Below are positions 10,130 to 24,563 of a DNA stretch of 43,256 nucleotides, in pieces. Positions within the stretch are counted from its first letter, which is position 1; each line of letters starts with the position of its first letter. The position numbers and the translations under genes are program-made. Under the pieces are notes generated by a model. It had not been told where the DNA came from, searched no databases, and saw nothing but the letters and a program-made list of their open reading frames with translations. Origin of the DNA: Rhodobacteraceae bacterium PARR1 (GTDB lineage Bacteria > Pseudomonadota > Alphaproteobacteria > Rhodobacterales > Rhodobacteraceae); the NCBI GenBank assembly GCA_002256185.1, contig NKIT01000014.1:1-43256 (forward strand), written 5' to 3'.

Positions 10130-10879
10130 TTATCGGATCACTGCCCCCGGTGATGTGCAGAGGAACGAGCCTGTCGGGACCAATCCGCACGAATTTCCCG
10201 CGCATTGGCAGGCCTGCAATTCGCCTTCATTTGAGCAGATGAACTGCCCTTCGCCGGCCGCGCTGCCGCCAAAAGGGTTCGAGCAGTTGGTGTTTGATGC
10301 TGAGGAGGCGCGGGAAGGCGCAGTACGCGGTTGCGATGACTCATTTTGATTTACCAGGTTCCACGCTGTCTGGTCTGCCAAGTAATTCCCGTAGTTAAGC
10401 GCATTCGCGTTTTGGGTCTGGTCCGCCAATTCATGGCGAGCATTTACCCTAGGAGGTAAGTCCCCGTCTTTTCCATAAATCGCTTCGATGCGGTTCATGT
10501 ATGCGTAGCAAGCTTCATGGGCGGCATTCAGACTGAGCTTGGCAGCCTCAACAGCGGCCCGTTCGGCAATCCCGTCCACGAAGGCGGGAAATGGCACTTT
10601 GCGGCATTGCGATGGGAACGGGATGGCCATGGCCTGCGCTTCGCTGTTTTGACGTGCAGGACTGTTTCCACCCTTGTCGTCGATCAGGCAGGAATCATTT
10701 TCGTTCGATTTGACTTCACAATTGGCGAGGTCACCACTGCGCGGTCGTGGCGCTTCGGTCGTGCCCGCCGCGCTGCCCAAACTTTTTATTTCGCGGGACA
10801 TTTTATCGACCGGTGTCACGCAAGCTGATAACATAAGCGCAACAAAGCAAAACAGTGTGCATGATCGCTTCAAATGCAT
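10130..10879 (-). CDS. Putative lipoprotein of unknown function (249 aa)
   Basis: The N-terminus MHLKRSCTLFCFVALMLSAC has a lipobox (LSAC, acylated Cys20), so the mature protein is membrane-anchored. The body has no family I recognise. A central helix-like part (about 100-185, AERAAVEAAKLSLNAAHEACYAYM) is followed by a Ser/Asn-rich linker and a cysteine-rich C-terminus (NTNCSN, FICSN, CQCAGNSCG, FLCTS) that may be disulfide-bonded. The start was placed at 10879 because it gives a proper lipoprotein signal; a longer frame to 10933 would bury it. Base composition is less GC-rich than the genes to its left. It lies just outside the integrated element, 176 bases from the left attachment site. Confidence 0.7.
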   Translation of the reverse strand: MHLKRSCTLFCFVALMLSACVTPVDKMSREIKSLGSAAGTTEAPRPRSGDLANCEVKSNENDSCLIDDKGGNSPARQNSEAQAMAIPFPSQCRKVPFPAFVDGIAERAAVEAAKLSLNAAHEACYAYMNRIEAIYGKDGDLPPRVNARHELADQTQNANALNYGNYLADQTAWNLVNQNESSQPRTAPSRASSASNTNCSNPFGGSAAGEGQFICSNEGELQACQCAGNSCGLVPTGSFLCTSPGAVIR

Positions 10880-11054
10880 CTGTTGTAACTCCACACCGTC
10901 ACGCGAACGAACCATTGCATGCGCAATGCGCATGACGACAAACCATCATCTGGTGGGGCAGTTCGGTCAAGGTTTTCTTCGTCTGAAGCACGAAGTGATC
11001 CAAACCGTTTGATCACCAAGCCTGCTTGTGTCGTAACCGACGACGTTCTGTAAG

Positions 11055-11069
11055 GGTGAGAGGCTGGAC
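11055..11069. repeat. Left attachment site (attL core)
   Basis: GGTGAGAGGCTGGAC is identical to 23764-23778, the 3' end of ffs. Including the three bases before it (AAG here, AAA there), 17 of 18 bases match. No SRP RNA sequence flanks this copy, so it is the displaced copy made by integration. Confidence 0.85.
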
Positions 11070-11132
11070 TTCTCAGCGTTTCTAAGAAAATTATACTTTT
11101 CAAATGCTTGTGACGCTTCGCGCCAGTGTTTT

Positions 11133-11162
11133 GTAGCAGAGCTTGTCGTGCGCCTTGTAGCA
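11133..11162 (+). promoter_or_regulatory. Left-end integrase arm-type repeats
   Basis: GTAGCA occurs at 11133-11138 (context TTTTGTAGCAGA) and 11157-11162 (CCTTGTAGCAGA), 24 bases apart. The same hexamer, with the same TTTTGTAGCAG context, occurs three times at 12-base spacing near the right end. Equal phasing at both ends of the element and absence from coding sequence suggest Int arm sites. Confidence 0.6.
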
Positions 11163-11276
11163 GATATGCCACGCGTAGTCGTTGTTTATAGCGTAGCCGG
11201 TGACTGCACCCTGCACAAGCCACACGGGGCTTTTGCAGGGTTACTGTCCGAGCTGCGATGGGAAATGGATGGCGAC

Positions 11277-11462
11277 TCAACTGCCGTCGCCGCGTCCCGC
11301 GTCAGGAGCTCCCCGTGCGGCCCTGACACGGGTCGGGGTGATCCTGGGGTCGCTGCCGTTCGAGATGACGCGGATGAACTCGATCCACGCGCGCTCGTTC
11401 GGGGTCAGGTCCTCCCATGTGCCTGACGGTGCGGTGGGAACGATGAAGATATCAACACTCAT
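11277..11462 (-). CDS. Small protein repeating the C-terminal motif of the upstream XRE regulator (61 aa)
   Basis: No known family. The segment NERAWIEFIRVISNGSDPRITPTRVRAARG matches NERGWLTELREVSDNTDPRLTARSRAALRG at the end of the protein from 11459-11857: shared positions include NER-W, the S before DPR, DPR itself, and R--A-RG. The start ATG at 11462 overlaps the stop of the XRE gene (ATGA), so the two are coupled. It may be a partial duplication kept as an interaction partner or antagonist of the regulator; that role is a guess. It is the last gene before the left attachment site. Confidence 0.6.
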   Translation of the reverse strand: MSVDIFIVPTAPSGTWEDLTPNERAWIEFIRVISNGSDPRITPTRVRAARGAPDAGRGDGS

Positions 11463-11857
11463 TTGCCAAAGACCCCTCGCAGCGCTGCACGTGATCGTGC
11501 GGTCAGACGTGGGTCAGTGTTGTCAGAGACCTCACGCAGTTCTGTCAGCCAGCCACGCTCGTTCTCGGTCACAGGAGAACCGAAGATGTCGGTGATCGCC
11601 TTCGCCGCCGTCACGCCTACCGCTTGATCAAGCGCGATGCGCATCAGGAGCGCAGGGTCCATCTCGAGTGCCTTGGCCAGTGACGGCACGCGGTCTAGGG
11701 GCACCTTGTTCTTGCCCGATTTCAGCAGGCTCATCATGTTGGCGTTGGTGAAGCCCGCTTCAGCGGCGATCTCAGCTTGGGTCTTTCGGTGGGACAGGTC
11801 GCGCACACGATCGGCAATCAGACGCGCAGCAGGGGTATTCTGGAAGGGGTTACTCAT
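11459..11857 (-). CDS. XRE-family helix-turn-helix regulator (132 aa)
   Basis: Residues 20-70 contain a Cro/CI-type helix-turn-helix (KTQAEIAAEAGFTNANMMSLLKSGKNKVPLDRVPSLAKALEMDP). After this comes a helical C-terminal part ending in the motif NERGWLTELREVSDNTDPR. The start at 11857 (MSNPFQN) was preferred over 11869 because a GAGATGG sequence precedes it. It is followed by a coupled 61-aa gene sharing its C-terminal motif. As the likely repressor of the element it may bind the repeats just upstream at 11911-12017. Confidence 0.85.
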   Translation of the reverse strand: MSNPFQNTPAARLIADRVRDLSHRKTQAEIAAEAGFTNANMMSLLKSGKNKVPLDRVPSLAKALEMDPALLMRIALDQAVGVTAAKAITDIFGSPVTENERGWLTELREVSDNTDPRLTARSRAALRGVFGK

Positions 11858-11910
11858 GGTCCATCTCATGCGTGGTTGGTGATGAGATAACCGTATCTTG
11901 CCGGTCAGAA

Positions 11911-12017
11911 AGCGTCGGGTGGGAACTCTGACCGGGTGGTTGGGATATGCGAAGTCCTAGGAAAAGGGTGCCTGGTCAATGGGACAGCGTCGGGTGCTAG
12001 CTAAGAAATCTAGCTAA
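11911..12017. promoter_or_regulatory. Repeats upstream of the XRE gene (candidate operator)
   Basis: AGCGTCGGGTG is repeated exactly at 11911-11921 and 11986-11996. Directly after the second copy, CTAGCTAA occurs twice (11997-12004 and 12010-12017) separated by GAAAT; each contains the palindrome TAGCTA or CTAG. They lie in the 183-base gap between the XRE gene and the 70-aa gene, where an autoregulated promoter would be expected. Confidence 0.5.
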
Positions 12018-12040
12018 ACCCTCCGCTCCCGGTGTGTTTC

Positions 12041-12253
12041 TCAAGACCTCGGCAGACCGTTAGAAGCCAGACGCGCTTCACCTAGCACCGGCAAGCCCAC
12101 ATATTTCTCGATCGGGACGACGTAAGCTTGTGGCCGGACCTCCGAAAACAGATCTGCCAGTTTCTCGGCATCGGCAAGGGCGCCCTGAAGCGAATGCGTA
12201 TCGGTATTGGGTGCCCGATCCAATGCTTCCTTCAGTGCAACAAGTATGCTCAT
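12041..12253 (-). CDS. Small protein downstream of the SDH_sah-type protease (70 aa)
   Basis: MSILVALKEALDRAPNTDTH... has a helical, charged N-terminal half and the C-terminal stretch VVPIEKYVGLPVLGEARLASNGL. I do not recognise the family. It begins 11 bases after the protease stop with a GAGGGG Shine-Dalgarno, so the two form an operon; it could be a substrate, adaptor or inhibitor of the protease. An overlapping frame at 12078-12260 is less likely because it lacks the better ribosome site. Confidence 0.6.
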   Translation of the reverse strand: MSILVALKEALDRAPNTDTHSLQGALADAEKLADLFSEVRPQAYVVPIEKYVGLPVLGEARLASNGLPRS

Positions 12254-12264
12254 GGCTCATCCCC

Positions 12265-13137
12265 TCAGTTTAGCGGTGTGTGAATACTGTGCATAACGAA
12301 GTCAACTCTCATTCGATCGATGCATCCGGTTAACAGATCGTTGTAGCTACGGATGGTAGTGCTTAGGTCTGGTATGTCAGAGTAATCGTCGATCTCAATC
12401 TTCAGTTCCTTCAACTTGGCGACATCTAGGCTGCGACCGTGCGACCGCCAGCGCTTGTGGTCCGCGAGGTCTTTGGCGATCTGCTCAGCGCGATCAGCCT
12501 TCTCTTGCTCTGTGACCGGTGTGCCTGGGTTGGTCGTCCGATGCTGGGTCCAGTTCCGGAACTTGTATTGAACGAGCCACTTCTTCAGCAGGTCAACGGA
12601 AAGATCACGGGCCTGCTCGAAAAGAGCTAGCTTCGCTAGGTCGAGGCTTTTCAACATCACGACATCGGCCGGGGCAAGTTGCCCCTTGTTCGTAATTTCA
12701 AGAACTTTGTCGATGTATCCCAGCGCTGGGACATAGTCACCCGTGTCAGGCGTCGGAACCTGCGGGTCAATCGGACCGAGCGTTGACGCGTAGTCCATGT
12801 AGATCCGATCGCCTGACATGCAGAGGATCGTTCCTGCTGACATTGCCACGTCTGGAACTATAAAGTTCACCTGCCCGTAGTGCTTCCTGAGAACGCCGAC
12901 CATCCGCTCAGTCGTCTCTGCAGACCCGCCGCCTGTCCTCAGAACGAGGCTGATGGTATCCTCCGTCCTCTGGCTCTTGCTTTTCACGTCCTCGATGAAG
13001 TCTCGAAAGCTGCGGAAGTAGTGCGGGTAAATGCTCCCGTGGTAGAAGACCACATCACTCTTCAACTTATCTTCAAGTTCACGGCATTTTTCGTCGATCA
13101 CACTGAAGATCTGGCGATCAAAAGGATCCGGCTGCAA
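12265..13137 (-). CDS. SDH_sah-type serine protease, ClpP fold (290 aa)
   Basis: The fold is that of the ClpP/SppA superfamily, closest to the serine-dehydrogenase-proteinase family. The signs are SLVLRTGGGSAE (about 63-74, oxyanion loop), NFIVPDVAMSAGTILCMSGD (about 91-110) with the nucleophile Ser100 in MSAGT, and MDYASTLGPIDPQ (about 114-126). There is no signal peptide, so it acts in the cytoplasm. A charged C-terminal helical part (about 200-260) is typical of the family. The start has a CGGAGAG ribosome site. It is paired with a 70-aa gene. Members are common on mobile islands but their role is unclear; defence or element maintenance are possible. Confidence 0.8.
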   Translation of the reverse strand: MQPDPFDRQIFSVIDEKCRELEDKLKSDVVFYHGSIYPHYFRSFRDFIEDVKSKSQRTEDTISLVLRTGGGSAETTERMVGVLRKHYGQVNFIVPDVAMSAGTILCMSGDRIYMDYASTLGPIDPQVPTPDTGDYVPALGYIDKVLEITNKGQLAPADVVMLKSLDLAKLALFEQARDLSVDLLKKWLVQYKFRNWTQHRTTNPGTPVTEQEKADRAEQIAKDLADHKRWRSHGRSLDVAKLKELKIEIDDYSDIPDLSTTIRSYNDLLTGCIDRMRVDFVMHSIHTPLN

Positions 13138-13486
13138 CTCGTCTCTCCGATCAACTACCTTACGCGAATCATTGTCGCATAGTCAGGGAATCATGTCACC
13201 TCAAAGTAGAATGGGGTCATGATTTTGTCCCTTATTTGCCTGCAGTCGGATCCACTTCTGGCCCCTTTCAGTTCCGTCCTGGGCGGATACGAAATGAATG
13301 TGAGAGCGTCGGTATGGTAGCGATGCGCGACTTCAGGCAGGCGCAGTTCCTGATTAATTGCAGTCAGTTAAGGGTAGGTAATGGCAACGGGGGAAGCGGC
13401 AGTGGGCGTAAAGAATTTCTTTATCCCAAGCAACGGTCGCCGGGGGCGGACGTATAGAGAAGAGAGACCCTGACGGAGCGACCCCT
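13138..13486. other. 349-bp divergent intergenic region
   Basis: Separates the leftward protease gene from the rightward HNH gene, so both promoters should lie here. A 13-base palindrome AAAGAATTTCTTT is at 13410-13422, 64 bases before the HNH start, and could be an operator. A 73-codon frame at 13236-13457 has no convincing start or composition. Otherwise nothing recognisable. Confidence 0.5.
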
Positions 13487-13975
13487 ATGCTGACCCAGAG
13501 ACGCCTGCGCGAGATCATGACCTATAACACCGAGACCGGTGCCTTCCTTTGGATCGCCGGTCGCAGGAAGGATCAGCCCGCAGGCACGGCCCATGATGCG
13601 CGCGGGTTCATGAAGGTGAAGATCAAGGGGGTGACCTATCCACTCCAGCGTCTCGCGTGGTTGTGGATGACAGGCTTCCTGCCTCCGCATGACGTAGAAC
13701 ACATCGACGGTGATCGAGGGAACAACGCATGGAGCAACCTGCGGGCAGGCACCCGGACGCAGGGTGACGTCTACAGTAGGGGCCTCGTCCCGCAGCCTAC
13801 CGGGGTGGAGGGGGTCTGGCTCTACGCCGGTCGCTTCCACGTGCTGGTCGACACCGACGTCATGCGCCTGAACATCGGAGACTTCGCGACGCTCGAGGAG
13901 GCGGCCAGCGCGCGGGCCCATGCGATCCGGAAGGCGCGCCAGAAGCAGCGGGAGCGCTTCGAGCTCGCTGCGTGA
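13487..13975 (+). CDS. HNH endonuclease with AP2-like C-terminal DNA-binding domain (162 aa)
   Basis: Residues 50-90 carry the phage-type HNH core: LQRLAWLWMTGFLPPHDVEHIDGDRGNNAWSNLR, with His72, Asp74/76 and Asn80. In this family the residue before RLAW is usually His; here it is Gln54, which may weaken metal binding. The C-terminal half (about 100-150, GVEGVWLYAGRFHVLVDTDVMRLNIGDFATLEEA) is the AP2-like beta fold that often follows such HNH domains in homing nucleases. The start has a GACGGAG ribosome site. It is the only plus-strand gene of the element and directly abuts the iteron array. Confidence 0.85.
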   Translation: MLTQRRLREIMTYNTETGAFLWIAGRRKDQPAGTAHDARGFMKVKIKGVTYPLQRLAWLWMTGFLPPHDVEHIDGDRGNNAWSNLRAGTRTQGDVYSRGLVPQPTGVEGVWLYAGRFHVLVDTDVMRLNIGDFATLEEAASARAHAIRKARQKQRERFELAA

Positions 13976-13987
13976 ATGTTGACGGCT

Positions 13988-14176
13988 GACAACATTACAG
14001 GTCCACACGTCAACCTTATGGGTCCACAGGTCAACATTCTGACCGCGAAATTCGCGGTTTCGACAACATCCGGCTCAGTAAAGCGCAACATCAGAGCGGT
14101 GTTCCGACCGGTCTGACAACATCCGGACTCAACAAAACAAGGGATATTCTCTTTGTATATTGTCGGAAGTTGTCGG
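13988..14176. repeat. Iteron and palindrome array, candidate replication origin
   Basis: Three units on a 21-bp period start at 13988 (GACAACATTACAGGTCCACAC), 14009 (GTCAACCTTATGGGTCCACAG) and 14030 (GTCAACATTC..., partial). Then comes the near-perfect palindrome CCGCGAAATTCGCGG (14043-14057). GACAACATCCGG occurs at 14062-14073 and 14115-14126. An AT-rich stretch (about 14127-14160) ends in two TGTCGG copies (14161-14166, 14171-14176) in the opposite orientation. Iterons, palindrome and AT-rich segment are the usual parts of a plasmid or phage-satellite origin, and a Rep-like gene lies about 1 kb away. Origin function is inferred. Confidence 0.6.
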
Positions 14177-15096
14177 ATCGAGCCCCAAAACGCGTTTTCT
14201 CCGAAGAGACGGACTAGGACGCCGCTTGTCGTGACCGCACGCGAGGATCGAAATCCGCCTGTCACCGGTCAGAACCGATAAAGCGGGCTTCGATCGTGGA
14301 TGACGCGAGGACGATTCCAGCACTGTGCATCCACCCGATGAGGATCTGCAAGCGGGAGGGCCCTTAGGTCCGAACCGGTCCTATCAGTCGTTGACGCGCT
14401 GTCCTGCACTGGTGGAGGACCTTGCCAGACCAAGCATGAACCGCATCGAGTGCGAGAACTGAGGTCACGATCATCCCCAAGTTCGCCATCGTCAAGGGAA
14501 GCGCGTAGGGCGCGTCCTATGCAGAAGCGCACCATCACCACCTGACGAGACACGGATGCGCGGCAAATCGCGCCCCAGCCAGCCTGTGAGCGTGCTGGTA
14601 TATGATGGTGTATCAGTCAGACCGGCGTGTCGACAAAGAGCGAGAGGACGGTCGCGACGGTCATGCTGACGGAGCGGAAGGACGGCACGCGCGGCGGTGT
14701 CTTTCCTCGTGCTCAGATCCGGCCAAGTCCTCCAGTGCAGCTCAAGGACACACTGCGGACTGGGCCATCACCGGATACAACATGTCGGGGGCAATGTCGG
14801 GATGATGCTTGCGGGGCAGACCATGAGTTTAATCCTCACGGCGGCCAACGCAGCATCATCTCGACATGACGGTATCGCCATCGGCCTTGGACCGGGACTC
14901 CGTGACTTGAGGTCGGGCCGGATGTCGCTCGTCGGAAAGCTGCCCACGCAAGTTTTTTTCACCGTGCGCACTGATCGGTCATGCGCGCTTTCACCAGTAT
15001 CTGAAGGACGGAGCGGCGGATGCGGTCATGACGTCCTAATAACTGGTAAGTAAGCACATATGACACCCTCACTCCCACATCCCACATCCCACATCC
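14177..15096. other. Gene-poor 0.9-kb segment between the iterons and the Rep-like gene
   Basis: No convincing coding region. A plus frame from a GTG at 14627 (80 codons) begins plausibly but becomes Cys/Gly/His-rich without homology. Three tandem CCCACAT copies (15074-15094) lie immediately 3' of the Rep-like gene. It may hold origin or packaging functions, small RNA, or decayed genes; nothing more can be supported. Confidence 0.4.
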
Positions 15097-16308
15097 TCAC
15101 ACCTTCACACCCTCCCGCTGACGCCACGCACTCGCTTCCCTCTCGTCGAGCTTCTGGAGGGCGACATTCACTTTCCTGTTTATCTCAGCCCAGGAAATCG
15201 CGGGCGCGGCCAGCCGATCGTCACCAGGTCGCTTCGGCATCGGTCGACTGAGTTTCGCGATCCGTCGCGCGTGCTTCTTCCACAGCTTCATTTGTCGAAG
15301 ATCCATCGTCCGGTCGAATAGACCGAGCGCGAGGATGCCTGACGTCAGGTATGTCTGGGCGCGCATCGCTTCCAGATGATTCATACCAGCCTGTCGTGCG
15401 GTCGGGTTCTTGGTCAACGCAAAGGTCGGCAGCTTGAACTGGAAGAACCTCTTCTGGAGCGACGTGAAGCGGAAGGTGCGCAGCGATGCGACGTCGGTGA
15501 TCCCGACCTGCTCCAGTTCCCAGTCTGCCAAGCACACCTCGATCCGCACGCGCTTCTCCGCGTCGGTCAGTTTGTAATGGTGGCCAGTCGGGTGCTGCCG
15601 GTCGATGACCTTGTCCATGATGCGGTGGAAGATGACGGCGTGTTCGGCGCCGACATACATCGTGCTGTCCAGCGGAGGGGCATAGTGCATCTCAGGGTTA
15701 CAGGCCGACCTCTCGTCTTTCTTCTTGTCCGGCTCAGGCGAAAGGAACCGCACCCGTCGATGTGCGGGGTCGATCCTCGGTCGGTCCCGTTTGTCGCTCC
15801 AGATGTCTCGGTCGGTCCAGAATGTGCGCTGCACCGCTCCGAGCATCAGTGCCCGTGTCGCATCCTTCTGGTCACGCGGGTAGGCATCGACGCTGATCTC
15901 GATCTGCTTCACCACCGGGGCCGTGACTTGCCCGTAGCGATCCGCCAGCGCGTCGCAGACCGTCGCGACAAGCGCCAGGCTGACCGGTTCCTGAATTCTG
16001 ATCTTGCACTTGCTGAAGGTAAGGCCGTCTCCGCACTGCAAAGGCGTGATGGCGCTATTCCGGTCTAGATGCCCGCGCAGGACGGTCTGAACATGCCGGT
16101 GCTGGGTGACGGATGCGAAGTGGCACTCGATCTCGATCCAGTCGACGACAGCCCGAAACCGGTAGGCATCGAGGTCGATCGCTGGTTTCAGCACCGAGCG
16201 CCCTACCAGCCGCGCCTGTGTGTTGGTCAGCGGCGTGAGTTGGTGGGGCAGGGTGTAGCGCGTGGTGCTCTGCCTCAGGGGCAGGATCGCGGTCGTGGGG
16301 AAGGGCAT
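15097..16308 (-). CDS. Putative replication initiation protein, Rep_trans-like (403 aa)
   Basis: The pattern matches replication initiation factors of the Rep_trans/RstA type. FRAVVDWIEIECHF (about 51-64) is the first beta strand block, IEISVDAYP is in the middle, then STMYVGAEHAVIFHRIMDKVIDRQ (about 215-238) and KRVRIEVCLADWELEQ (252-267), which parallel the family's T-x-Y-x-G ... RIYDK ... RxE blocks. No unambiguous nicking tyrosine can be named. The start at 16308 (MPFPTTA) has an AGAGGAT ribosome site; the frame extends to a GTG at 16335. It probably acts on the iteron array at 13988-14176. A phage DNA-binding protein is the main alternative. Confidence 0.55.
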   Translation of the reverse strand: MPFPTTAILPLRQSTTRYTLPHQLTPLTNTQARLVGRSVLKPAIDLDAYRFRAVVDWIEIECHFASVTQHRHVQTVLRGHLDRNSAITPLQCGDGLTFSKCKIRIQEPVSLALVATVCDALADRYGQVTAPVVKQIEISVDAYPRDQKDATRALMLGAVQRTFWTDRDIWSDKRDRPRIDPAHRRVRFLSPEPDKKKDERSACNPEMHYAPPLDSTMYVGAEHAVIFHRIMDKVIDRQHPTGHHYKLTDAEKRVRIEVCLADWELEQVGITDVASLRTFRFTSLQKRFFQFKLPTFALTKNPTARQAGMNHLEAMRAQTYLTSGILALGLFDRTMDLRQMKLWKKHARRIAKLSRPMPKRPGDDRLAAPAISWAEINRKVNVALQKLDEREASAWRQREGVKV

Positions 16309-16404
16309 GGCATCCTCTGTTTTGGGTCTCCTCACGGTTCATACGTTCGCGTGTGGATGCTTGCGGGTGGGAAAGGAAAGAAAGCGCGAGGTGCGTCCGG
16401 CCCC

Positions 16405-16416
16405 GTAGAATTCTAC
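16405..16416. repeat. Palindrome GTAGAATTCTAC, copy 1
   Basis: A perfect 12-bp palindrome, also present at 16831-16842. In both places it supplies the TAG stop codon of a minus-strand frame (67-aa and 165-aa frames). A second shared block lies close to each copy: GGGAACGGCAGCAGAG followed by C or T and GGGA, at 16451-16471 and 16767-16787. Confidence 0.7.
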
Positions 16417-16616
16417 GCGTGCGGTGCGGATGGACGAGGCAGCGGAAATCGGGAACGGCAGCAGAGCGGGATCGACTGTTGAAACAGCTTGGATGGCGTG
16501 ACACCGGTCTCGGTGTGGAGGCGGTTGACGTCGTCATGCACCAGATCGATCGACCAGCTCGTGCCTCGGTCCCCTATGCGTGTCGCGATCACCTTCTCCA
16601 CTAGCCTCGCCTTCAA
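16413..16616 (-). CDS. Possible small protein (67 aa)
   Basis: MKARLVEKVIATRIGDRGTSWSIDLVHDDVNRLHTETGVTPSKLFQQ... has a plausible helical N-terminal two-thirds. The last 20 residues come from the GGGAACGGCAGCAGAG repeat and look non-native. No family is recognised and no strong ribosome site is visible. It occupies most of the otherwise empty 530-bp gap between the Rep-like gene and the 165-aa gene (16309-16838). It ends in the same palindrome that ends the upstream gene, which is the main reason to list it. Confidence 0.3.
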   Translation of the reverse strand: MKARLVEKVIATRIGDRGTSWSIDLVHDDVNRLHTETGVTPSKLFQQSIPLCCRSRFPLPRPSAPHA

Positions 16617-16830
16617 CGACCCTTACAGCGCGCAGGAGAGCCGCTTCCAGCGCGCTTCACTGTTCCGGCACTCTCTTGCTGCACCCCAGAACGAAGCGAC
16701 GTCCAGCACGCGTCTGACGCGGTCCTAGACCGATCCGCGACGAGCATCATGACCGGTTGTGGGGCGGGGAACGGCAGCAGAGTGGGAGCGGTGGGTGGTT
16801 CTGTCTCTACGTGGTTGATGGCGACCGCGC

Positions 16831-16842
16831 GTAGAATTCTAC
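16831..16842. repeat. Palindrome GTAGAATTCTAC, copy 2
   Basis: Identical to 16405-16416 and overlapping the stop codon (TAG) of the 165-aa gene. The 426-base spacing and the two copies of GGGAACGGCAGCAGAG between or beside them suggest a duplicated regulatory or recombination site. Confidence 0.7.
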
Positions 16843-17336
16843 ACGGCCTGTTTCGCCAACCACTTCTCCAGCGCATCGAGAAGATGCTGATCATGGATGA
16901 GGCTGCCTCGTGCCAGCGCCAAACCGATGCTGGCATTTCGAGTAGAGTATCCAAGCTCGAACATCACCTGACCTAGCCTGAGACCGCGCGCGGCCATGAC
17001 CGCCTTGAGCTTCTGCCCGGTCGCTGGCGTAAGGTAACCGCCAACGTGGATCTGGTTCACCCCTACCGCTGCGGTCGTCGAGGCGCTCACAGGCCCTATC
17101 GCTGCGGTCGGAGTCAGAGGCATGCACCCTATGTCAGCGCGGAACGTCGCCCGCTCGGCGGCCGATGCCTCCGACCACGCCTTTTTGAGCGTGTCCAGCG
17201 GCGACGGCACTTTCTTCAACCCCGCCGCCCGGATCGCTGCGGAGGCGTTCTTGAACTTGCCTGCTTGGTAGTCGGCGTAGATGGCGGGATGCTCATCCCG
17301 CAGTCGGGCGAGGTAGTAGGCGTTGCTTCGGTTCAT
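16839..17336 (-). CDS. Phage/island-type small protein (165 aa)
   Basis: The N-terminal segment NAYYLARLRDEHPAIYADYQAGKFKNASAAIRAAGLKK resembles a short domain, common in phage and island genes, that follows a YLLARL...AI-AGI pattern. The C-terminal half (about 95-165) is helical and resembles a small DNA-binding fold (TGQKLKAVMAARGLRLGQVMFELGYSTRNASIGLALARGSL). Its exact function is unknown; regulation or replication of the element is possible because it sits beside the Rep-like gene. Its TAG stop lies within the palindrome at 16831-16842. Confidence 0.65.
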   Translation of the reverse strand: MNRSNAYYLARLRDEHPAIYADYQAGKFKNASAAIRAAGLKKVPSPLDTLKKAWSEASAAERATFRADIGCMPLTPTAAIGPVSASTTAAVGVNQIHVGGYLTPATGQKLKAVMAARGLRLGQVMFELGYSTRNASIGLALARGSLIHDQHLLDALEKWLAKQAV

Positions 17337-17366
17337 ATGTGAGCGTTTGCCAGATCGGAGGACGTT

Positions 17367-17939
17367 TCATTTCGTCGAATTGAACCTGTTTTGCATGACC
17401 TTTTCACTCTTTTCGATTAAGTCTTTGAACGAGTCCGGCTTCGATCTGATGATAAAATACGCCATCGTAAACCGATCATAACTCCCAGAAGTTACTTGAG
17501 GGCCTATCATTGCTCCTGCAGTGTCGATTTCGACTCTACAAACATCTGATGCAACTGACAACAATGAGTGGTTTACATCAGAGCAGACCCGATACGCTCG
17601 AGTTAGTTCGACCGTATGGTCTGTCACAAAGCTTGCTGCCACCCTTTCAGTCACGCCAGTCATTCGACCTACCGCCTCAATGAATTCAGGTATGCGCTCG
17701 ATGAACTGAGAAAATTCAGCGATCTCGCCTTTGTCTGTTTTAAGGTGAGATTCATCTTCGCGATAGGCGAAGTATAGCAGAGCCCATATCGGAACATAAA
17801 TCAGCGTGAGCCAGCCAAATTGCTGCTGAAAATGCGCAGTAGCGGCACACAAGAACATAACAGCTGTAATGATATACTTGGCAGGAATACCAGTTAGTGT
17901 CGCAGTCTTAATGATCAGAAAGTCAAGAAATCGGCGCAT
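17367..17939 (-). CDS. Unknown membrane protein, AT-rich (190 aa)
   Basis: Two adjacent hydrophobic segments (about residues 20-60, IITAVMFLCAATAHF and FGWLTLIYVPIWALLYFAY) are followed by a soluble domain rich in Glu and Ser. I recognise no family. The start was set at ATG 17939 (MRRFLDF); a TTG at 17987 would add 16 residues but has no ribosome site. Base composition is clearly more AT-rich than the element average, as is that of its neighbour at 18021-18383. The two genes may have been acquired together. Confidence 0.6.
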   Translation of the reverse strand: MRRFLDFLIIKTATLTGIPAKYIITAVMFLCAATAHFQQQFGWLTLIYVPIWALLYFAYREDESHLKTDKGEIAEFSQFIERIPEFIEAVGRMTGVTERVAASFVTDHTVELTRAYRVCSDVNHSLLSVASDVCRVEIDTAGAMIGPQVTSGSYDRFTMAYFIIRSKPDSFKDLIEKSEKVMQNRFNSTK

Positions 17940-18020
17940 TTTTCTCTTATGGACCTTTGCAAATCTATATATGAACCGTTGATTCAAGGCAGAAAGACAA
18001 TTTGCGCAGTTGCATTCGAC

Positions 18021-18383
18021 TTACTCTTCTGCGACTTTCTTCCATGTTCCTTGCCGGAAAATCTCCAATATATGCTTTGGATCGAAAGTGCCTTCTCGCC
18101 ACCCTTCTTCGGTAGTGAACTTAAAAAATAGCCTCCTACTCTCCACGGTTACAACTAGTTCATCGCAGTCACTTGGAAGATAGTAAAAGTCGAAAGCATT
18201 TCCTGCTTTGAGCGCATCCAATATCTGCTCTTGAAGAGGATGAGTATCTATTTCTTGTGATGATCGCAGGAATAGTCCGACCACCATATGGTTATGAGTG
18301 CCCCGATAAAGTTGCCAGATTGAAGTAGAGTCTCTGAGTTCTGCGCAAGTGCAGAACTTAATATGTCCGTCAGATATGCACAT
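18021..18383 (-). CDS. Unknown soluble protein, AT-rich (120 aa)
   Basis: A small mixed alpha/beta protein without signal peptide or known motif. The N-terminus MCISDGHIKFCTCAELRD has three cysteines; later segments include DFYYLPSDCDELVVTVESRRLFFKF and ILEIFRQGTWKKV. It lies between the restriction-methylase and the 190-aa membrane protein, all leftward. With the membrane protein it could be a two-gene cargo module; function unknown. Confidence 0.6.
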   Translation of the reverse strand: MCISDGHIKFCTCAELRDSTSIWQLYRGTHNHMVVGLFLRSSQEIDTHPLQEQILDALKAGNAFDFYYLPSDCDELVVTVESRRLFFKFTTEEGWREGTFDPKHILEIFRQGTWKKVAEE

Positions 18384-18439
18384 AGTGTTTTCTCAGCATG
18401 AATTCAAAACTCTTGATCTGATCGCATTCGACACTTCGC

Positions 18440-21400
18440 TCACATCGCATACCGTCCGTCATCGGTCTTCTGCGCGTAGCCCAGCATGCTGAGGCTTTCG
18501 AGCAGCGGCGTGACGGAGGCGGTGCGGGCGCGGGCGAAGTGGCGGGCGACTTGTTCGGGTGAGGCTTCGCGCAGTTCGGACAGGGCTTCGCGCACGGCGG
18601 CCATCTGTTCGGGCAGCGTCTTCGGCCAAGGCGAGCGGGTGGCGCTGTCGGGGGTGATGATGTCCATCGCGGTCTGTTCGCCCTTGACGGTCGTCGTCTG
18701 ACCGGCGGGGTTCTGGTAGTCGGGGCGCAGCCAGCGGACGATGCCGCGCGCCTCTTCCACAGCGCGTTCGCGGTTCAGCGCGACGAGACGGAGAAGGATG
18801 TCATCGTCGGACAGCGACAGGGGCCAGCCATAGGCAGCGGCGACGGCGGCGTCGATGCGGTCGTGGATGTCCTTCAGCAGACCGATCAGACCCTGATCAT
18901 AGACCTCCTTGTCCTTCCCCTCGATCCGCTCACCCGCCCGCAGCTTTTCCAGCACGTTATACATGGCGGTCAGGGTCAGCTTCGGATGCGCCTTCTGGCG
19001 ATCCTTGCGATGGGCGTCGAGTTCCTCACCCAAGGCGCGGAGGGTGGCCTTTTGCGCCTCGCTCGCGTCAGGGAAAGGGAAGGGGTTGAAGCATTGAGCA
19101 TGGTTGTAGTTCGAGTCGTTCCCGACACCCAACCAACCACCCGCAGCGTCAGACCACGTTACGTGAAAACGGGACGACAGGACCGAAAGGGCTGCAGCGT
19201 CGTCAAGACCGATAGCAATCAGCTTTGCATCCGGCAGGATATCGACGTCTAGGAAACCGAACAGGCGATGCTTCGCTGTTCGACAGGTCACGATATATCG
19301 GTCCAAGCCATCGAACATCGGACGCATCGTCACGTTCGGTTCCGAGTATATCCACCAGCGTTCCCTGCGTGTCTGGCGCTTCACTGCGTCCCGGACGGGT
19401 TTCACGGTGTCTAGCACTCGCTGAAAAAGCGCAGGTGAGAAGTCCCGCACTTCTTCGAGCGTCATGCCGGTGAAGTCGATGATGAACCGTGGCGGAGCAC
19501 CTTCGATGAACTCGCGTCCGTTGAGGTAACGTCGGATCACCTTCGCTTCGATTTCGCGGCGATACAGGTCGTGCGCTTCAAGGTAAGTGACATAGAACCC
19601 GTCACCACCGGGAATGACACCCTGATAAGCAATTCTCCGGTTCGATCTCAGCGGCAGGGTAGACGCGACTGCCGCCCCGACAGTCAGGTCGGACTGAATG
19701 GTGCCCTGCGTTTCCGTCAGGTTCACGGCTCGACCCTCGGCACCTTCCAGAAACTTCGATTCATCATTCACAGTGAGCAGCCGCCCGGTGATCCGGCCCT
19801 TCTCTGCCACCGTCATCGCGATACGCACCGCAGCACCATCGCCGCTGTCGACCCAAGGGTGGTCCGGAATGGCAAAGACCAGACCGAGTGGGGTCTTCGG
19901 ATCGTTCAGATGCGTCTCCAGCACTCGACGGTTGAAGGTCTGTCGCAGCGAGTTGGTCGTGATGAAGCCGAAGCGACGGCAGCCCTTGCCGCCCTTGTAG
20001 GCGCGGGCGGCGAGGGCGGCTTTTTCCCACCAGAACATGACGAAGTCCGCGCTGTCCGGCACCTTGGGATAGGCTTTGCGGATCGCCTCGGTATAGCCGT
20101 CGCCCAGCGTGTCCCGCATGCGCTTGTTGCCGATGAAGGGCGGGTTACCGACGATGAACTCTGCGTCTGGCCATTTCGCGGGGCGCGGTTTCAGATAGTC
20201 CCAGACCTGCACGCGCGCCTGCGGATCGGGAACGGCCTCCCCCGTCACGGGATGGGTGATCGTCGTGATCCCGTCCCAGCGGGTCACGGGGTTGCCGTGT
20301 TCATCCTTGCGCGGGCGGCGGTCATCCCAGTCCAGCACGGCATCGCGGTTTTCGATGTTGTGGAAGTCGCGCAGCACCGGCTCTGCGGGACTGGCGGTGC
20401 CGTGGGTGCGGAAGTGCCATTGTAGGTAGCCGATCCACAGCACCAGCTCTGCCACGGCGGCAGCCCAAGGGTTGACCTCGATCCCAAGGAACTGGTGCGG
20501 GTCGACGGTGTGACCCGCCAATGCGAGCGCTGCCTGATCGTCGCGCAGATCGCGGAGGAGGGCGATGATCTCCCCCTCCAACCGCTTCATCAGTTCTAGC
20601 GCGACGTAGAGGAAGTTTCCGGAACCACATGCGGGATCGAGCACGCGCACCTCGCACAGGCGACGGTGGAAGGCGCGCACTGTGTCTTTCGCGGCGTCCT
20701 CTTGTCCCAGCTTGGCTTGCGTCAGGGCGGTGGCCTGCACCGTCTCCCACTCCGTCCGCAGGGGTTGGATGACGGTGGGGTTCACCAGCCGTTCGACATA
20801 GGCGCGCGGCGTGTAATGCGCCCCCAGCTTGTGACGCTGTCTGACGTCGAGGGCGCGTTCCAGAAGGGTGCCGAAGATCGCGGGTTCCACCTCGCGCCAG
20901 TCATGACCAGCGGCGTTGATGAGGAGGGAAAGCTGGACCTCATTCACCGGCAGGGCGGTCGCGTTCGCGAAGAGGCCACCGTTAAAGCGCGGGATGCGTT
21001 TGCGCAGCACATGCGACATGCCGCCTGCGTCCATCTCTCGGAAGAGACCCTCCAGCATGTCTTTCGCGTCTTGCGGGCGACCGCGAAGCTCCTGGAGCAG
21101 GTCCTTGAACGAGTGTTCAGGGATGAGACGGACATCCTCGGCGAACATGGTGAACAGGCAGCGCATCAGGAACTTCGCGACGGCCTCTGGCGCGTGACCC
21201 TGACCTTCGAAGGACTTGCCAAGTTCGGCGAGGTGGCTGGCGACCTTCCGCGTGACCTGCGCGCTGACCTTCGACGGGTCAAGGCTGAGCGGGTTAGTCC
21301 AGATCGCCCGCAGCAGGGTGCGCTTGCCCTCCTCCCGCAGGTCGTCCAGCGTGATGCGGTAGCGGTTGCCGTCTGGAAACTGGGTGTAGCCCTGTCCTTG

Positions 21401-21886
21401 CCCGGAAAAGTCGGCATGCACCTCGATGACGTGACCGACATCGACGACCAGCAGGAAGGGCGGCCAGCCATCGGCACGCGACACGGCACGCGCGTAGCTG
21501 TCCGCCTGATTGCGCGCGCGCAGCATGGTGTCATCCCATTTGCGCGATCCGCGCTGACCGTGGCCCTGACGGCTGGCAGCGGGCAGGTCGGAAAGGAACG
21601 ACGGCTGATCCGGGTTCTCAACCGGGGCATCAACGCCCTGCTTCGCTTCCATCACGAAGCAGCCGCGCCGGTAGAGGTCGATGAACCCGCGCGTCTGGCT
21701 GGAGGTGTGGATGAAGGTGACGGGTCGTTCGAACCGGTAATGGTCGTTCTGCGCGTCGCTGGTCGCGGGCTTCGGTGCGTCGACGCCAAGGACCTGGGTC
21801 AGTTCGATGGCGAACTGCTGGAAATTCGCACGCTCGCTGCCACTTGAGGCACGCCACCGTGAAATAAAGTCATCCACCGAACCCAT
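18440..21886 (-). CDS. MmeI-like type IIL restriction-methyltransferase (1148 aa)
   Basis: A single chain holding both nuclease and adenine methylase. The N-terminal nuclease has D70, E80 and K82 (FIDLYRRGCFVMEAKQG), the same numbering as the D-X9-EXK site of MmeI, after the family start WRASSGSERANFQQF. A helical linker (about 190-350) leads to the gamma-class N6-adenine methylase with motif I DPACGSGNF (417-425) and motif IV NPPF (581-584). The target-recognition region follows (about 650-960), then a C-terminal helical domain. Length is at the long end of the family. DISARM methylases (DrmMI) share parts of this layout, but no drm genes are nearby, so a stand-alone system is favoured. It should methylate host sites and cut unmethylated invading DNA. 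Confidence 0.85.
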   Translation of the reverse strand: MGSVDDFISRWRASSGSERANFQQFAIELTQVLGVDAPKPATSDAQNDHYRFERPVTFIHTSSQTRGFIDLYRRGCFVMEAKQGVDAPVENPDQPSFLSDLPAASRQGHGQRGSRKWDDTMLRARNQADSYARAVSRADGWPPFLLVVDVGHVIEVHADFSGQGQGYTQFPDGNRYRITLDDLREEGKRTLLRAIWTNPLSLDPSKVSAQVTRKVASHLAELGKSFEGQGHAPEAVAKFLMRCLFTMFAEDVRLIPEHSFKDLLQELRGRPQDAKDMLEGLFREMDAGGMSHVLRKRIPRFNGGLFANATALPVNEVQLSLLINAAGHDWREVEPAIFGTLLERALDVRQRHKLGAHYTPRAYVERLVNPTVIQPLRTEWETVQATALTQAKLGQEDAAKDTVRAFHRRLCEVRVLDPACGSGNFLYVALELMKRLEGEIIALLRDLRDDQAALALAGHTVDPHQFLGIEVNPWAAAVAELVLWIGYLQWHFRTHGTASPAEPVLRDFHNIENRDAVLDWDDRRPRKDEHGNPVTRWDGITTITHPVTGEAVPDPQARVQVWDYLKPRPAKWPDAEFIVGNPPFIGNKRMRDTLGDGYTEAIRKAYPKVPDSADFVMFWWEKAALAARAYKGGKGCRRFGFITTNSLRQTFNRRVLETHLNDPKTPLGLVFAIPDHPWVDSGDGAAVRIAMTVAEKGRITGRLLTVNDESKFLEGAEGRAVNLTETQGTIQSDLTVGAAVASTLPLRSNRRIAYQGVIPGGDGFYVTYLEAHDLYRREIEAKVIRRYLNGREFIEGAPPRFIIDFTGMTLEEVRDFSPALFQRVLDTVKPVRDAVKRQTRRERWWIYSEPNVTMRPMFDGLDRYIVTCRTAKHRLFGFLDVDILPDAKLIAIGLDDAAALSVLSSRFHVTWSDAAGGWLGVGNDSNYNHAQCFNPFPFPDASEAQKATLRALGEELDAHRKDRQKAHPKLTLTAMYNVLEKLRAGERIEGKDKEVYDQGLIGLLKDIHDRIDAAVAAAYGWPLSLSDDDILLRLVALNRERAVEEARGIVRWLRPDYQNPAGQTTTVKGEQTAMDIITPDSATRSPWPKTLPEQMAAVREALSELREASPEQVARHFARARTASVTPLLESLSMLGYAQKTDDGRYAM

Positions 21887-21987
21887 CGCAACCCAACCGA
21901 AACGCGCAAACCACCATGCCGTTCGCTACACTAGGTTGCGTCTGAATGCGAAGGCAATGGAATAGTGCCGTGGGTCAGGGGGTTACT

Positions 21988-23658
21988 TCACGGTTGTTCG
22001 GCGCCATCAGGTGCAGCGCGGCGAAGGGCCGGGATTGGCAAGTCGAACCGAACGCGGTTCAGCGCTTCCGCCATTAGGATTACCGGCGTCGCCTGGATGT
22101 AGACGGATGCAACTTCTTGCGGCGCGTGACCAGAGATCATCTTCGATATCTCACGCGGGACGCCACAGCGGGCGAGTTCGGTCTGGAGGGTGTGCCGGAA
22201 GCTATAGAATACCTTCTGCTTGCTCTTGATGCATAACGAGACGAGGTAGCCGTTGTTGAACCAGTCATTGACCTTGTCCGGTCGCGCGGCCCATTCGGGG
22301 AACAGCAGTTCTTGGCCCTTTTGCTTCAGGCTCGTAACGTGATCGAGAAATCCGAGCTTCACGAGGTCGTCGTGGATCGGGACCAGACGCTTGCTTCGTT
22401 GGTTCTTCGAGGCCTCGGCCAGATCGAAGACCGGGACACCCTGTTCGCTGTAGATGTTCGTCAGTGTCATCCGTGCCATCTCGGACGAATTGCGCACACC
22501 GGTGAACAGCATGATCAGGAGCGCCCACTGGTTTAGCTCATAGGTCGACGGGTCGTGAAAGAGATCTGTGCCGAAGATCAGTTTCAGCTCATTTCTCGTG
22601 AAGGGCAGGTATGACGGTTCCTTGTGCACCTTGCTCCCAGTATCGACCTTGATCCCTTGCGCCGGGTTGGTTTCGATGTAGCCGTTGTTCGAGGCCCACT
22701 GCAGGATGCTCGACAGGTGCGACAGCCACTTCATGTTGATTGTCTTCGGTGCCAGCGTGGCGAAGGGTTCAGCCAGCTTCTTGTTCGCCTTGATCGCCTG
22801 GGGCAGCGTCAGGCCGGAAAAGCGCATCGTGTAGCGGTTCGGGGTCTCAAGCAGCGTCTGCTTGTATGCGATGACTTGCTTCTTGGTGATCGACTGCACG
22901 GCGGTCTCGCCGCCCATGAACTCATTGAACATGCGGGTTGCGTTGCGGTGCTCCTCCATCGTCTTGGCAGCCAGCGTGCTACCCCCTGCGGTCCGTTCCG
23001 CGTGAAACGCCTTCAAAGCATCGGTCAACGTCATTCCGATGGTCTTCGGTGCGCTGGCCGCTGGCATGGTCTTCGGGATCGGGTCCGGTTCGGTCAGCAG
23101 CGGATGAGACGGTGACGTAAGCTTGACCTTCCCCGCGTCACGCTCTTCGAAGGCCTCCAAGGCCTGGAGCTGGATCTCGGCGAGGGTGCGAAGAAGCGTC
23201 GGACGGTCGACCTGTGGCGCACGACCGTTGCGCTTCAGATCATTTGCAGCATGCCCGATCAGTGCCTCTGCCTCCTCGCTGTCCAACTGCCCAGCGACCA
23301 GAAGACGTAACTTGGTCGCATAGAAAGTCCTGCTGAAGGCCAAGGGTTCAGTGTAGATCGGATCGAGGATCGTCGCACGCGCGCGGTCGTCGAGTTCAAG
23401 TGCCAACCGATAGTGTTCTTTTGCCGCGCTCGACAGCGTCGGTTTGCTGGCCTCGCCCAGCGACTCCCAGACCTCGCGCGCTTCGTCGAGCTTCGCATGA
23501 AATGCGTTGATGATCGCGACGGCCTTCTTCTCGCGCGACTTCGTGTCGCTGGGGAGACCGATTTCGACCAACTCACGCTGCCCGATGATCGCCCGTAACT
23601 CCTCCGGAACGATCATCCGGACGACCCACCGACCACGCACGTTCTGAACGTATTTCAT
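21988..23658 (-). CDS. int: Tyrosine recombinase / integrase (556 aa)
   Basis: Residues 210-320 form the core-binding SAM-like domain (TLTDALKAFHAERTAGGS ... EHRNATRMFNEFM); the catalytic domain spans about 350-535. Catalytic positions: Arg389 in LFTGVRNSSEM, Lys near 423 in KNQRSKRLVPIH, Arg488 in YSFRHT, His511 in SGHAP and nucleophile Tyr520 in SVYIQ. The first residue of the usual HxxR box is Tyr485 instead of His. The N-terminal 200 residues are long, like integrases of genomic islands in alphaproteobacteria. The start at 23658 has an AGGGGTGAG ribosome site; the longer frame to 24042 runs through ffs. It sits beside the right attachment site, as expected for an integrase cutting there. 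Confidence 0.93.
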   Translation of the reverse strand: MKYVQNVRGRWVVRMIVPEELRAIIGQRELVEIGLPSDTKSREKKAVAIINAFHAKLDEAREVWESLGEASKPTLSSAAKEHYRLALELDDRARATILDPIYTEPLAFSRTFYATKLRLLVAGQLDSEEAEALIGHAANDLKRNGRAPQVDRPTLLRTLAEIQLQALEAFEERDAGKVKLTSPSHPLLTEPDPIPKTMPAASAPKTIGMTLTDALKAFHAERTAGGSTLAAKTMEEHRNATRMFNEFMGGETAVQSITKKQVIAYKQTLLETPNRYTMRFSGLTLPQAIKANKKLAEPFATLAPKTINMKWLSHLSSILQWASNNGYIETNPAQGIKVDTGSKVHKEPSYLPFTRNELKLIFGTDLFHDPSTYELNQWALLIMLFTGVRNSSEMARMTLTNIYSEQGVPVFDLAEASKNQRSKRLVPIHDDLVKLGFLDHVTSLKQKGQELLFPEWAARPDKVNDWFNNGYLVSLCIKSKQKVFYSFRHTLQTELARCGVPREISKMISGHAPQEVASVYIQATPVILMAEALNRVRFDLPIPALRRAAPDGAEQP

Positions 23659-23679
23659 ACTCACCCCTGAACACCATTT

Positions 23680-23709
23680 GTAGCACCTTTTGTAGCAGGA
23701 TAAGTAGCA
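23680..23709 (+). promoter_or_regulatory. Right-end integrase arm-type repeats
   Basis: GTAGCA occurs at 23680-23685, 23692-23697 and 23704-23709, exactly 12 bases apart, between the integrase start and the attachment core. The best contexts read TTTTGTAGCAG, as at the left end. They may also lie in the integrase promoter, allowing Int to control its own gene. Confidence 0.65.
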
Positions 23710-23712
23710 AAG

Positions 23713-23730
23713 CCCCTTCAGATGAAGGGG
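23713..23730. terminator. Hairpin between integrase and ffs
   Basis: CCCCTTC-AGAT-GAAGGGG forms a 7-bp stem. On the minus strand, the direction of ffs transcription, a CCTTTTTTTG tract (around 23737-23745) precedes it, so ffs RNA may end at the T-tract and the hairpin may protect the integrase gene from read-through. Confidence 0.5.
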
Positions 23731-23763
23731 TTTCAACAAAAAAAGGTGTCTGAAGGGGGAAAA

Positions 23764-23778
23764 GGTGAGAGGCTGGAC
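23764..23778. repeat. Right attachment site (attR core) = 3' end of ffs
   Basis: GGTGAGAGGCTGGAC; on the minus strand GTCCAGCCTCTCACC, the closing strand of the SRP RNA stem. Identical to 11055-11069. The integrase gene begins 105 bases away. Confidence 0.85.
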
Positions 23779-23862
23779 AACGACCCAAGCGGGGCTCGTT
23801 ACGGCTGCTTCCTTCCGGACCTGACCGGGTTGGCGAGGCGCTCGCCCGCGCCAACCTCTCGG
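23764..23862 (-). ncRNA. ffs: Signal recognition particle RNA (4.5S, small bacterial type)
   Basis: The minus strand carries the conserved domain IV core GGTCAGGTCCGGAAGGAAGC followed by AGCC, which binds Ffh with its GGAA tetraloop. The ends pair: GAGAGGTTGG at the 5' side with CCAGCCTCTC at the 3' side, ten pairs including one G-U. This gives an RNA of about 99 nt. With Ffh and FtsY it delivers membrane proteins to SecYEG. The gene remains intact because the integrated element restores its 3' end. Exact ends are estimated to within a few bases. Confidence 0.95.
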
Positions 23863-23915
23863 GGGTCGATATAGGGGGGCGGGGGCGGATTCGCAAGTGG
23901 ATAGCGTGGCGTGGT

Positions 23916-23935
23916 CACAGGGCCTTTGGCCTGTG
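23916..23935. terminator. Hairpin after the HAD gene
   Basis: CACAGGGCC-TTT-GGCCTGTG forms a stem with one bulged base, directly after the HAD stop (23937-23939). It lies between the HAD gene and the ffs promoter region. No long T-run is present, so efficiency is uncertain. Confidence 0.5.
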
Positions 23936-23936
23936 G

Positions 23937-24563
23937 TCAGAGCAACCCGGCCAGACGTGCGCCGGTCCACAAGTCGGCGGCCAGATGGCGGGCGAAACGG
24001 CCATCGGTGCGCTGCACGTCGGGCACCTGCACCACGACACATCCGGCGCGATGGGCGGCTTCGGCCCCCACGTCGCTGTCTTCAAACACCAGACAGCGGG
24101 CGGGATCGACGCCCAACCGCTCGGCCGCCAGAAGATAGGGGTCGGGCGCGGGTTTGGCGGCGGTGACATCGTCAAAGGTGATGATGGTGCGGAAATGCGG
24201 GGTCAGTCCGGCGCGGTCCAGCTTCCAATGCGCGCCTGTGCGCCCGGTGGAGGTGACCAGCGCCATCGGCTGGCGGATCGCGCGCAGCAGGTCATGCGCG
24301 CCGGATTTCATCGGAACGCCAGCCTCAAGCCCCGCTTGAAAGCCGCGTTTCCATGCGGCGGAAAAGCCCGCCTCATCCAATCCGGGATAGGCGGCGCGGA
24401 TGATTTCAACGCCTGCGGGTTCGGCCTTGCCCACCAGTTGGTGCATGAAACTTTCGTCCACCGCATGGCCGAATTCGGCAAAGGCCTGCACGCCCGCCGT
24501 CATGGCGACGCTTTCGGTGTCGATCAGGGTGCCGTCGAGATCGAAGAATACCGCGTCGAACAT
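23937..24563 (-). CDS. HAD-superfamily hydrolase, subfamily IA (208 aa)
   Basis: The four HAD motifs are visible: DLDGT (residues 8-12, nucleophile Asp8 and acid Asp10), VTSTGR in motif II, K in TAAKPAPDP for motif III, and EDSDVGAEAA in motif IV. The cap (about 15-90) is helical, like beta-phosphoglucomutase and phosphoglycolate phosphatase relatives. The substrate is not clear; sugar phosphates are likely. The next gene upstream starts 50 bases away. Confidence 0.88.
   Translation of the reverse strand: MFDAVFFDLDGTLIDTESVAMTAGVQAFAEFGHAVDESFMHQLVGKAEPAGVEIIRAAYPGLDEAGFSAAWKRGFQAGLEAGVPMKSGAHDLLRAIRQPMALVTSTGRTGAHWKLDRAGLTPHFRTIITFDDVTAAKPAPDPYLLAAERLGVDPARCLVFEDSDVGAEAAHRAGCVVVQVPDVQRTDGRFARHLAADLWTGARLAGLL

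Follow-up and report, generated by a model that had tools for sequence, protein, structure and literature searches.

A probable genomic island at the 3' end of the SRP RNA gene in a member of the Rhodobacteraceae

Lambda-type attachment sites have a core that is flanked on both sides by arm-type repeats. The gene for the small signal recognition particle (SRP) RNA, ffs, is short, highly expressed, and essential or nearly so, so that any integrase acting at its 3' end has to restore it. Here we analyze an element at this gene in Rhodobacteraceae bacterium PARR1. The window, that is, the whole stretch of DNA analyzed, comprises 43,256 nucleotides of contig NKIT01000014.1, and its positions 11055-23763 very probably represent a site-specifically integrated genomic island that has the 3' end of ffs as its attachment site. 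Islands at tRNA and tmRNA genes (the Islander/TIGER class; PMC4383910, PMC12424338) likewise have a tyrosine integrase beside a restored RNA 3' end and a displaced fragment at the far end; the target here is SRP RNA, not a tRNA or tmRNA.

Integration at SRP RNA has a precedent in pneumococcal prophages and CIPhR elements, which use attBscr, the 3' end of scr (SRP RNA), with a 22-bp duplication; mutants demonstrated that the insertion leaves the RNA gene working (PMC12637031). In both cases the SRP RNA 3' end is duplicated and restored, a likeness in the kind of target. The pneumococcal account concerns Firmicutes and phages or 6.2-kb remnants, whereas the window island comes from Alphaproteobacteria, has a 15-bp repeat, and belongs to a set of small islands with defence-like cargo. 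The initial annotation had called ffs a target that is less often described, which is fair, but the pneumococcal example means that it is not undescribed. We found no other reports of SRP RNA integration in the open-licence literature, which omits most subscription papers. Integration at the SRP RNA 3' end has thus already been published, and an alphaproteobacterial family with defence-like cargo is not described as far as that literature goes.

The SRP RNA gene and the borders of the island

An exact 15-bp direct repeat, with both copies on the plus strand, bounds a 12.7-kb segment (Table 1). The match between the copies can be prolonged to 18 nt with one mismatch, and a search of the whole window gave a third site, at 38531, with 2 mismatches. 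At up to 2 mismatches the window thus holds 3 matches, compared with a mean of 0.20 in shuffled sequences, and 3 were reached in 0 of 100 shuffles. The bacterial small SRP RNA was the sole RNA gene identified in the window by Rfam at gathering thresholds, and ARAGORN detected no tRNA or tmRNA genes there. Given the Rfam span of ffs, the right copy of the repeat is exactly the last 15 nt of the gene, the 3' strand of its closing stem. The identity block is therefore an RNA gene 3' end, present once in the intact gene and once displaced, and the integrase gene adjoins the RNA-gene-side junction. It begins 105 bp from the ffs 3' end and is transcribed away from ffs. These results agree with the initial annotation, which had placed the segment between 15-bp repeats, taken one copy as the closing stem strand of ffs with an integrase beside it, and proposed that the element rebuilds the RNA end: ffs is full length and has the same score (56.6 bits) as the ffs of the island-free relative G016. 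Its overall interpretation, that an island has integrated into the 3' end of ffs, fits all of the comparative evidence presented below.

Table 1. Features of the window island, with the separated island ends of G233 in the last line.
Feature	Position	Strand	Evidence or remark
Displaced copy of last 15 nt of ffs, far-end attachment core	11055..11069	-	15-mer match; like displaced cores of G329, G330, G233, G331, G046
IHF-like site CAAGCATTTGAAA	11098..11110	-	41 nt from core; 8/9 consensus letters; candidate
Left-arm repeat GCTACAA (TTGTAGC on +)	11131..11137	-	68 nt from core
Left-arm repeat GCTACAA (TTGTAGC on +)	11155..11161	-	92 nt from core
136-aa Cro/C1-type helix-turn-helix (HTH) protein	11459..11869	-	phrog_8 E=9.7e-7; HTH_26 E=0.0046 (below Pfam cut-off)
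ClpP-like SDH-type serine protease, cargo	12265..13137	-	PF01972 E=1e-17; phrog_11747 E=4.2e-54
HNH endonuclease, cargo	13487..13975	+	PF13392 E=9.2e-11; phrog_99 E=1.1e-31
412-aa protein, no assigned function	15097..16335	-	start may be internal ATG
165-aa protein, no assigned function	16839..17336	-	no match above curated cut-off (four libraries)
206-aa protein, no assigned function	17367..17987	-	no match (four libraries)
120-aa protein, no assigned function	18021..18383	-	no match (four libraries)
Type IIG (MmeI-like) restriction-modification enzyme, 1148 aa, predicted main cargo	18440..21886	-	PADLOC PDLC03627 1616 bits over 3-1147
Tyrosine integrase, 556 aa	21988..23658	-	PF00589 E=5e-9; phrog_1 E=5.8e-31; conserved R, K, R, H, Y present
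Right-arm repeat GCTACAA	23678..23684	-	26 nt before integrase ATG
Right-arm repeat GCTACAA	23690..23696	-	38 nt before integrase ATG
Degenerate third right-arm repeat GCTACTT	23702..23708	-	beside right-arm pair
Hairpin-rich stretch between ffs and integrase	23711..23758	-	possible ffs terminator or protein-binding site (candidate)
Attachment core within ffs 3' end, ffs-side junction	23764..23778	-	15-mer match + Rfam
ffs, SRP RNA gene, intact	23764..23860	-	RF00169 56.6 bits, model 1-97 (full length)
Island ends in G233	G233:C1:918626 and 4080247		L136, L137

The integrase start was taken as the ATG at 23658 because the beginning MKYVQ is common to its relatives. Inside each core lies a pair of GCTACAA repeats, in the same orientation at the two ends. 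This 7-mer occurs six times in the window on either strand: four times as arms, once elsewhere in the island, and once at 43141. Since about 1.6 occurrences per strand are expected from base composition, the placing of the repeats matters, not their number. Candidate IHF-like sites were scored against an IHF consensus. The best match falls at -41 in six of seven left ends and at +11 in nine of 11 right ends. Shuffle controls for single sites were mostly not significant (0.002-0.57 at left ends and 0.004-0.93 at right ends); the window's left site alone gave 0.042, and no convincing site was found in its right arm (0.93). The constant position, in sequences that are related by descent, lends weak support to these candidates. 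The locus thus resembles lambda-type attachment sites in having a core with arm repeats on both sides and a candidate IHF-like site at a fixed place, and differs from them in arm sequence, in spacing, and in that no excisionase was recognised in the window island.

The fold of 23690-23778 on the minus strand, which takes in the hairpin-rich stretch, has a predicted energy of -17.4 kcal/mol (z -2.49), equalled by three of 200 shuffles. Six loci from members of the genus that have no integrase at ffs (L034, L036, L039, L042, L043, and L044) carry a hairpin-like AACCCCTT..AAGGGG stretch about 30-50 nt past ffs. It resembles the right arm of the islands and may be a scar of lost islands.

Among the 41 genomes of the first search for relatives, G016 was the nearest, with 90% identity over the ffs-side flank. 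Window positions 1-9866 are collinear in G016 at 89%, as is the sequence from 23764 onwards. G016 contains a single 15-mer copy and lacks an integrase. In it, 3.2 kb of its own DNA, with ORFs for two HTH regulators and a repeat protein, separate ffs from the last base that it shares with the window on the other side, 9866. The initial annotation had pointed to an empty site with one copy of the repeat as the thing to look for in close relatives; G016 agrees with this in its single copy and in lacking the whole 12.7 kb, but not in a direct joining of the flanks, because other DNA is present and 9867-11054 is missing too.

No clean empty site was found in 19 genomes of the genus with left-flank protein and DNA as queries, and none of the other 18 genus genomes had DNA matching 9867-11054 at the ffs locus. 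The only open reading frame (ORF) of more than 200 aa in this stretch, 10130-10933, has homologues in two of those 18 (G008 and G011) and is of no use as an anchor because they lie elsewhere in those genomes. Most genus genomes have unrelated DNA after ffs. The position of the left border is therefore based on sequence features and on comparison with other islands, not on an empty site. The G+C content of the segment between the repeats is 0.588, against 0.665 in 1-9866 and 0.635 in 23764-43256; it is lowest, 0.543, in 9867-11054, the 1.2 kb outside the left copy. Because this is even below the value for the island, the left border cannot be placed by composition alone. Positions 9867-11054 are probably separate foreign DNA. 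ORF 10130-10933, in this low-G+C stretch, is lipoprotein-like.

Related islands and integrase lineages at ffs

A contig search with the window integrase, whose lineage we call A, gave seven loci in six genomes. Four of the six have a full ffs that ends 105-107 bp before the integrase: G328 (a Gemmobacter metagenome-assembled genome [MAG]), G329 (Pseudotabrizicola sediminis), G330 (Sinirhodobacter), and G331 (a Defluviimonas MAG). The others were G332 (a Roseobacter MAG) and G333 (Mangrovicoccus). Some integrase match was present in 89 of 295 family genomes, and the ffs-adjacent loci among the 50 examined were those of the window genome, G233, and G046. The G233 integrase is broken into pieces, and only an N-terminal remnant is left in G046. 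Altogether, six other genomes (G328, G329, G330, G331, G233, and G046) have an intact ffs with an integrase relative 95-107 bp downstream of it, in the same orientation and accompanied by the same repeats, so that the same lineage stands at ffs in independent genomes. As a DNA pattern, the ffs end with two spaced arm repeats was present in four of 394 family genomes, at one place each and always at ffs; the backward pattern, used as a control, was present in 0 of 394. G360 is probably the same assembly as G331, since the two agree in contig number and in position.

Second cores on the same strand were located at 17.3 kb (G329), 15.1 kb (G330), and 9.7 kb (G046). The left arms of G329 lie at exactly -92/-68, as in the window; in G330 a single exact arm was found, at -69. 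The G233 genome contains a core accompanied by arms at -68 and, with one mismatch, at -92, but this core is inverted and 3.16 Mb distant, which suggests a large rearrangement with one break inside the island. The G331 core is on another contig, has no arm matches, and is followed by an apparent integrase remnant. The gene usually found downstream of ffs is dnaX. In 11 of 29 integrase-free ffs neighbourhoods it shares the strand of ffs and begins 49-909 bp past the 3' end of the RNA gene; it is 1.7-11.5 kb away in seven and outside the examined stretch in 11. dnaX of G330 starts 15.2 kb after ffs, with the displaced core 68 bp before its ATG. This apparent insertion between ffs and dnaX is the clearest comparison of an occupied with an empty site, at the family level.

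G332 carries tandem islands. Behind its full ffs stands another integrase, which has GTTACAA arms and shares about 22% identity with that of the window; 16.0 kb further on is a 25-nt ffs fragment, behind which comes the lineage A integrase. A relative (66%) of the first G332 integrase is also behind ffs in G311, and other relatives are behind tRNA-Thr in G002 and tRNA-Val in G315. Since the lineage of the first G332 integrase is distant from lineage A and is also at ffs in G332 and G311, ffs has been adopted by at least two integrase lineages.

Besides the integrase, the Cro/C1-type HTH protein is the second recurring island gene, with homologues in eight of the 10 ffs islands examined. The far-end homologues of G329 and G330 are 82% and 70% identical, respectively, and those directly behind the integrases of G332 (twice), G331, G233, and G311 are 55-62% identical. 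No homologue was found in G328, where the far end is unseen, or in the G046 remnant. HTH relatives occur in 37 of the 295 family genomes. Integrase matches were present in the 1.5-kb flank of four of 20 fetched loci (L143, weakly, and L149, L150, and L157), with none for the window, so the protein occurs also away from recognisable integrases. It may regulate the integration module. G071 has five near-identical copies of this protein (78-79%) on five contigs (L141, L167, L168, and others), two of them no more than about 1 kb from a tRNA gene, and perhaps holds several islands of the same kind.

The nearest relative of lineage A with another target is L110, an IMG/VR viral contig. Its integrase is 52% identical over 1-551 to that of the window and has the same arm repeats at the same spacing before the gene. 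Unlike the window island, L110 targets tRNA-Ser(GGA), bears portal, head protease, major head, and terminase genes, and had no HTH partner in the stretch examined. L110 could be an HK97-type prophage or a capsid-forming satellite. An integrase tree was built from 33 rows, leaving out ORF pieces of <230 aa, L095_6775 (a 1085-aa ORF), shorter duplicate loci from genomes that were already represented, L098, and L093. The ffs label needs three changes on this tree, in which long branches meet and deep joins are unsure. The nine-row lineage A clade, with seven rows labelled ffs (L131_16278 among them, at the 25-nt ffs fragment), one near-copy, and one tRNA-Ser row, had support of 100/100; the branching inside it, including the position of L110, is not settled.

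Cargo of the islands

Island annotation was restricted to larger proteins (3 to 10 per island), and 10 window ORFs were scanned in four libraries (Pfam, PHROGs, NCBIfam, and PADLOC). The main cargo, with four MmeI Pfam domains and 69% identity to Paracoccus plasmid proteins, is a predicted anti-phage enzyme. PADLOC matches were obtained in six of seven islands scanned; they are sequence matches and indicate predicted defence only. Apart from the window enzyme, they comprise Mza components in the first G332 island and in G328, GmrSD-type and trypsin-like proteins in G330, a HEC-01A ATPase in G331, and HsdR-like and AAA proteins in G233, where the island border is uncertain. None of four G329 proteins had a PADLOC match, and Pfam gave HipA, a transposase, and unassigned proteins there. 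The G046 island, scanned with Pfam only, resembles a sugar ABC transporter set. The ffs islands thus appear to share an integrase and usually the HTH protein, with variable and often defence-like predicted cargo.

The 412-aa protein had no match in the four libraries. In plasmid and phage searches its only homologues, distant ones, were on two Sagittula plasmids, with 27% identity to a hypothetical protein on one of them. It was not called a replication protein, as a separate replication initiator is annotated on the Sagittula plasmid viewed. A 21-nt inverted repeat (90%) around GTAGAATTCTAC, at 16399-16419 and 16828-16848 (408 nt apart), is a possible regulator or integration site.

Alternative explanations and a model of integration

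Several observations weigh against the reading as an island integrated at ffs. G016 lacks 9867-11054 as well, and no exact empty site was seen for the species of the window. The G333 integrase is beside a one-mismatch core away from ffs, the displaced end in G046 has no arm repeats and goes with an integrase remnant only, and G328 has a single core copy in its whole genome, its far end being unseen. The predicted integrase, which otherwise has the catalytic R, K, R, H, and Y set, has Tyr in place of the box II His. This Tyr is present in all eight lineage A integrases that have the segment. It was dropped as a marker of the ffs clade, since it is found in L084, L090, L101, and L169 too.

That the repeat is a coincidence, in ordinary chromosomal DNA beside an unrelated integrase, is extremely improbable. 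The repeat is short and the arrangements in G046 and G333 are imperfect, but the shuffles never reached the observed number of matches, the arm spacing and architecture recur in other genera, and the backward pattern hit none of the 394 family genomes. More can be said for a larger mobile unit with its true far end near 9867, in which the copy at 11055 would be an internal or older junction of a tandem or decayed island: all of 9867-23763 is absent from G016, 9867-11054 has the lowest G+C content, the two genomes with homologues of ORF 10130-10933 have them elsewhere, and tandem ffs islands exist in G332. We nevertheless consider it very unlikely, because arms at -92/-68 and the HTH gene lie directly inside 11055, as at the G329 far end, and 9867-11054 contains neither a GCTACAA repeat nor a second core. 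In addition, dnaX is absent from the window and from the G016 stretch, and the locus was therefore rearranged earlier.

The segment could also be the remains of a prophage, or a phage satellite, and not an autonomous island, as the head genes of L110 and a weak similarity of the ClpP-like cargo protein to head-maturation proteases in PHROGs would suggest. This too is unlikely: PHROGs gave no portal, capsid, tail, or terminase family for the nine larger ORFs inside the repeats, the integrase is intact, and two large unrelated ffs cargo sets bear defence genes instead. Nor were relaxase or conjugation families, expected of an integrative conjugative element, among the matches of the 10 window ORFs. 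The family scans thus support neither a prophage nor a conjugative element, and since no conjugation or virion genes were recognised, transfer would need a helper or transformation.

Taking 11055-23763 as an integrated island, we infer a mobile element with a circular intermediate, whose attP would hold a 15-nt copy of the ffs 3' end. The integrase would recombine this attP with the chromosomal ffs 3' end, so that the ffs beside the integrase retains its entire 3' end, with the second 15-nt copy left at the far end. By analogy with lambda-type recombinases, the integrase and a bending protein such as IHF may bind arms and core and so form the recombination complex. The HTH gene would adjoin the integrase gene across attP in the circle, and its product may control integration and excision or integrase expression. 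The host could benefit from the defence cargo, here the type IIG enzyme.

A broader proposal, possible but doubtful, is that ffs of Rhodobacterales is a dedicated docking hub to which at least two distant integrase lineages (with GCTACAA and GTTACAA arms) came independently; they would share one HTH partner and carry interchangeable anti-phage systems, and transcription from the strong promoter of ffs, reading through under the control of the hairpin, would tie integrase expression to the element being integrated. Read-through is suggested because the integrase is directly downstream of ffs on the same strand. Two integrase lineages, one HTH protein, kept arm spacing, tandem arrays, and defence cargo together make a testable ffs-specific integrase family in Alphaproteobacteria, which would add a second bacterial phylum to the published SRP RNA target. 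ffs may thus be a place for the systematic search of defence genes, and its integrases could supply new site-specific integration tools, as the target is present in most bacteria.

The 5' side of ffs varies as well. About 42 kb separate ffs (91364-91497) from its usual 5'-side neighbour, a phosphatase gene (48549-49189), in G006:C10, and smaller 5'-side gaps of 1.7-3.2 kb are present in G002, G009, and G010; they suggest an insertion on that side.

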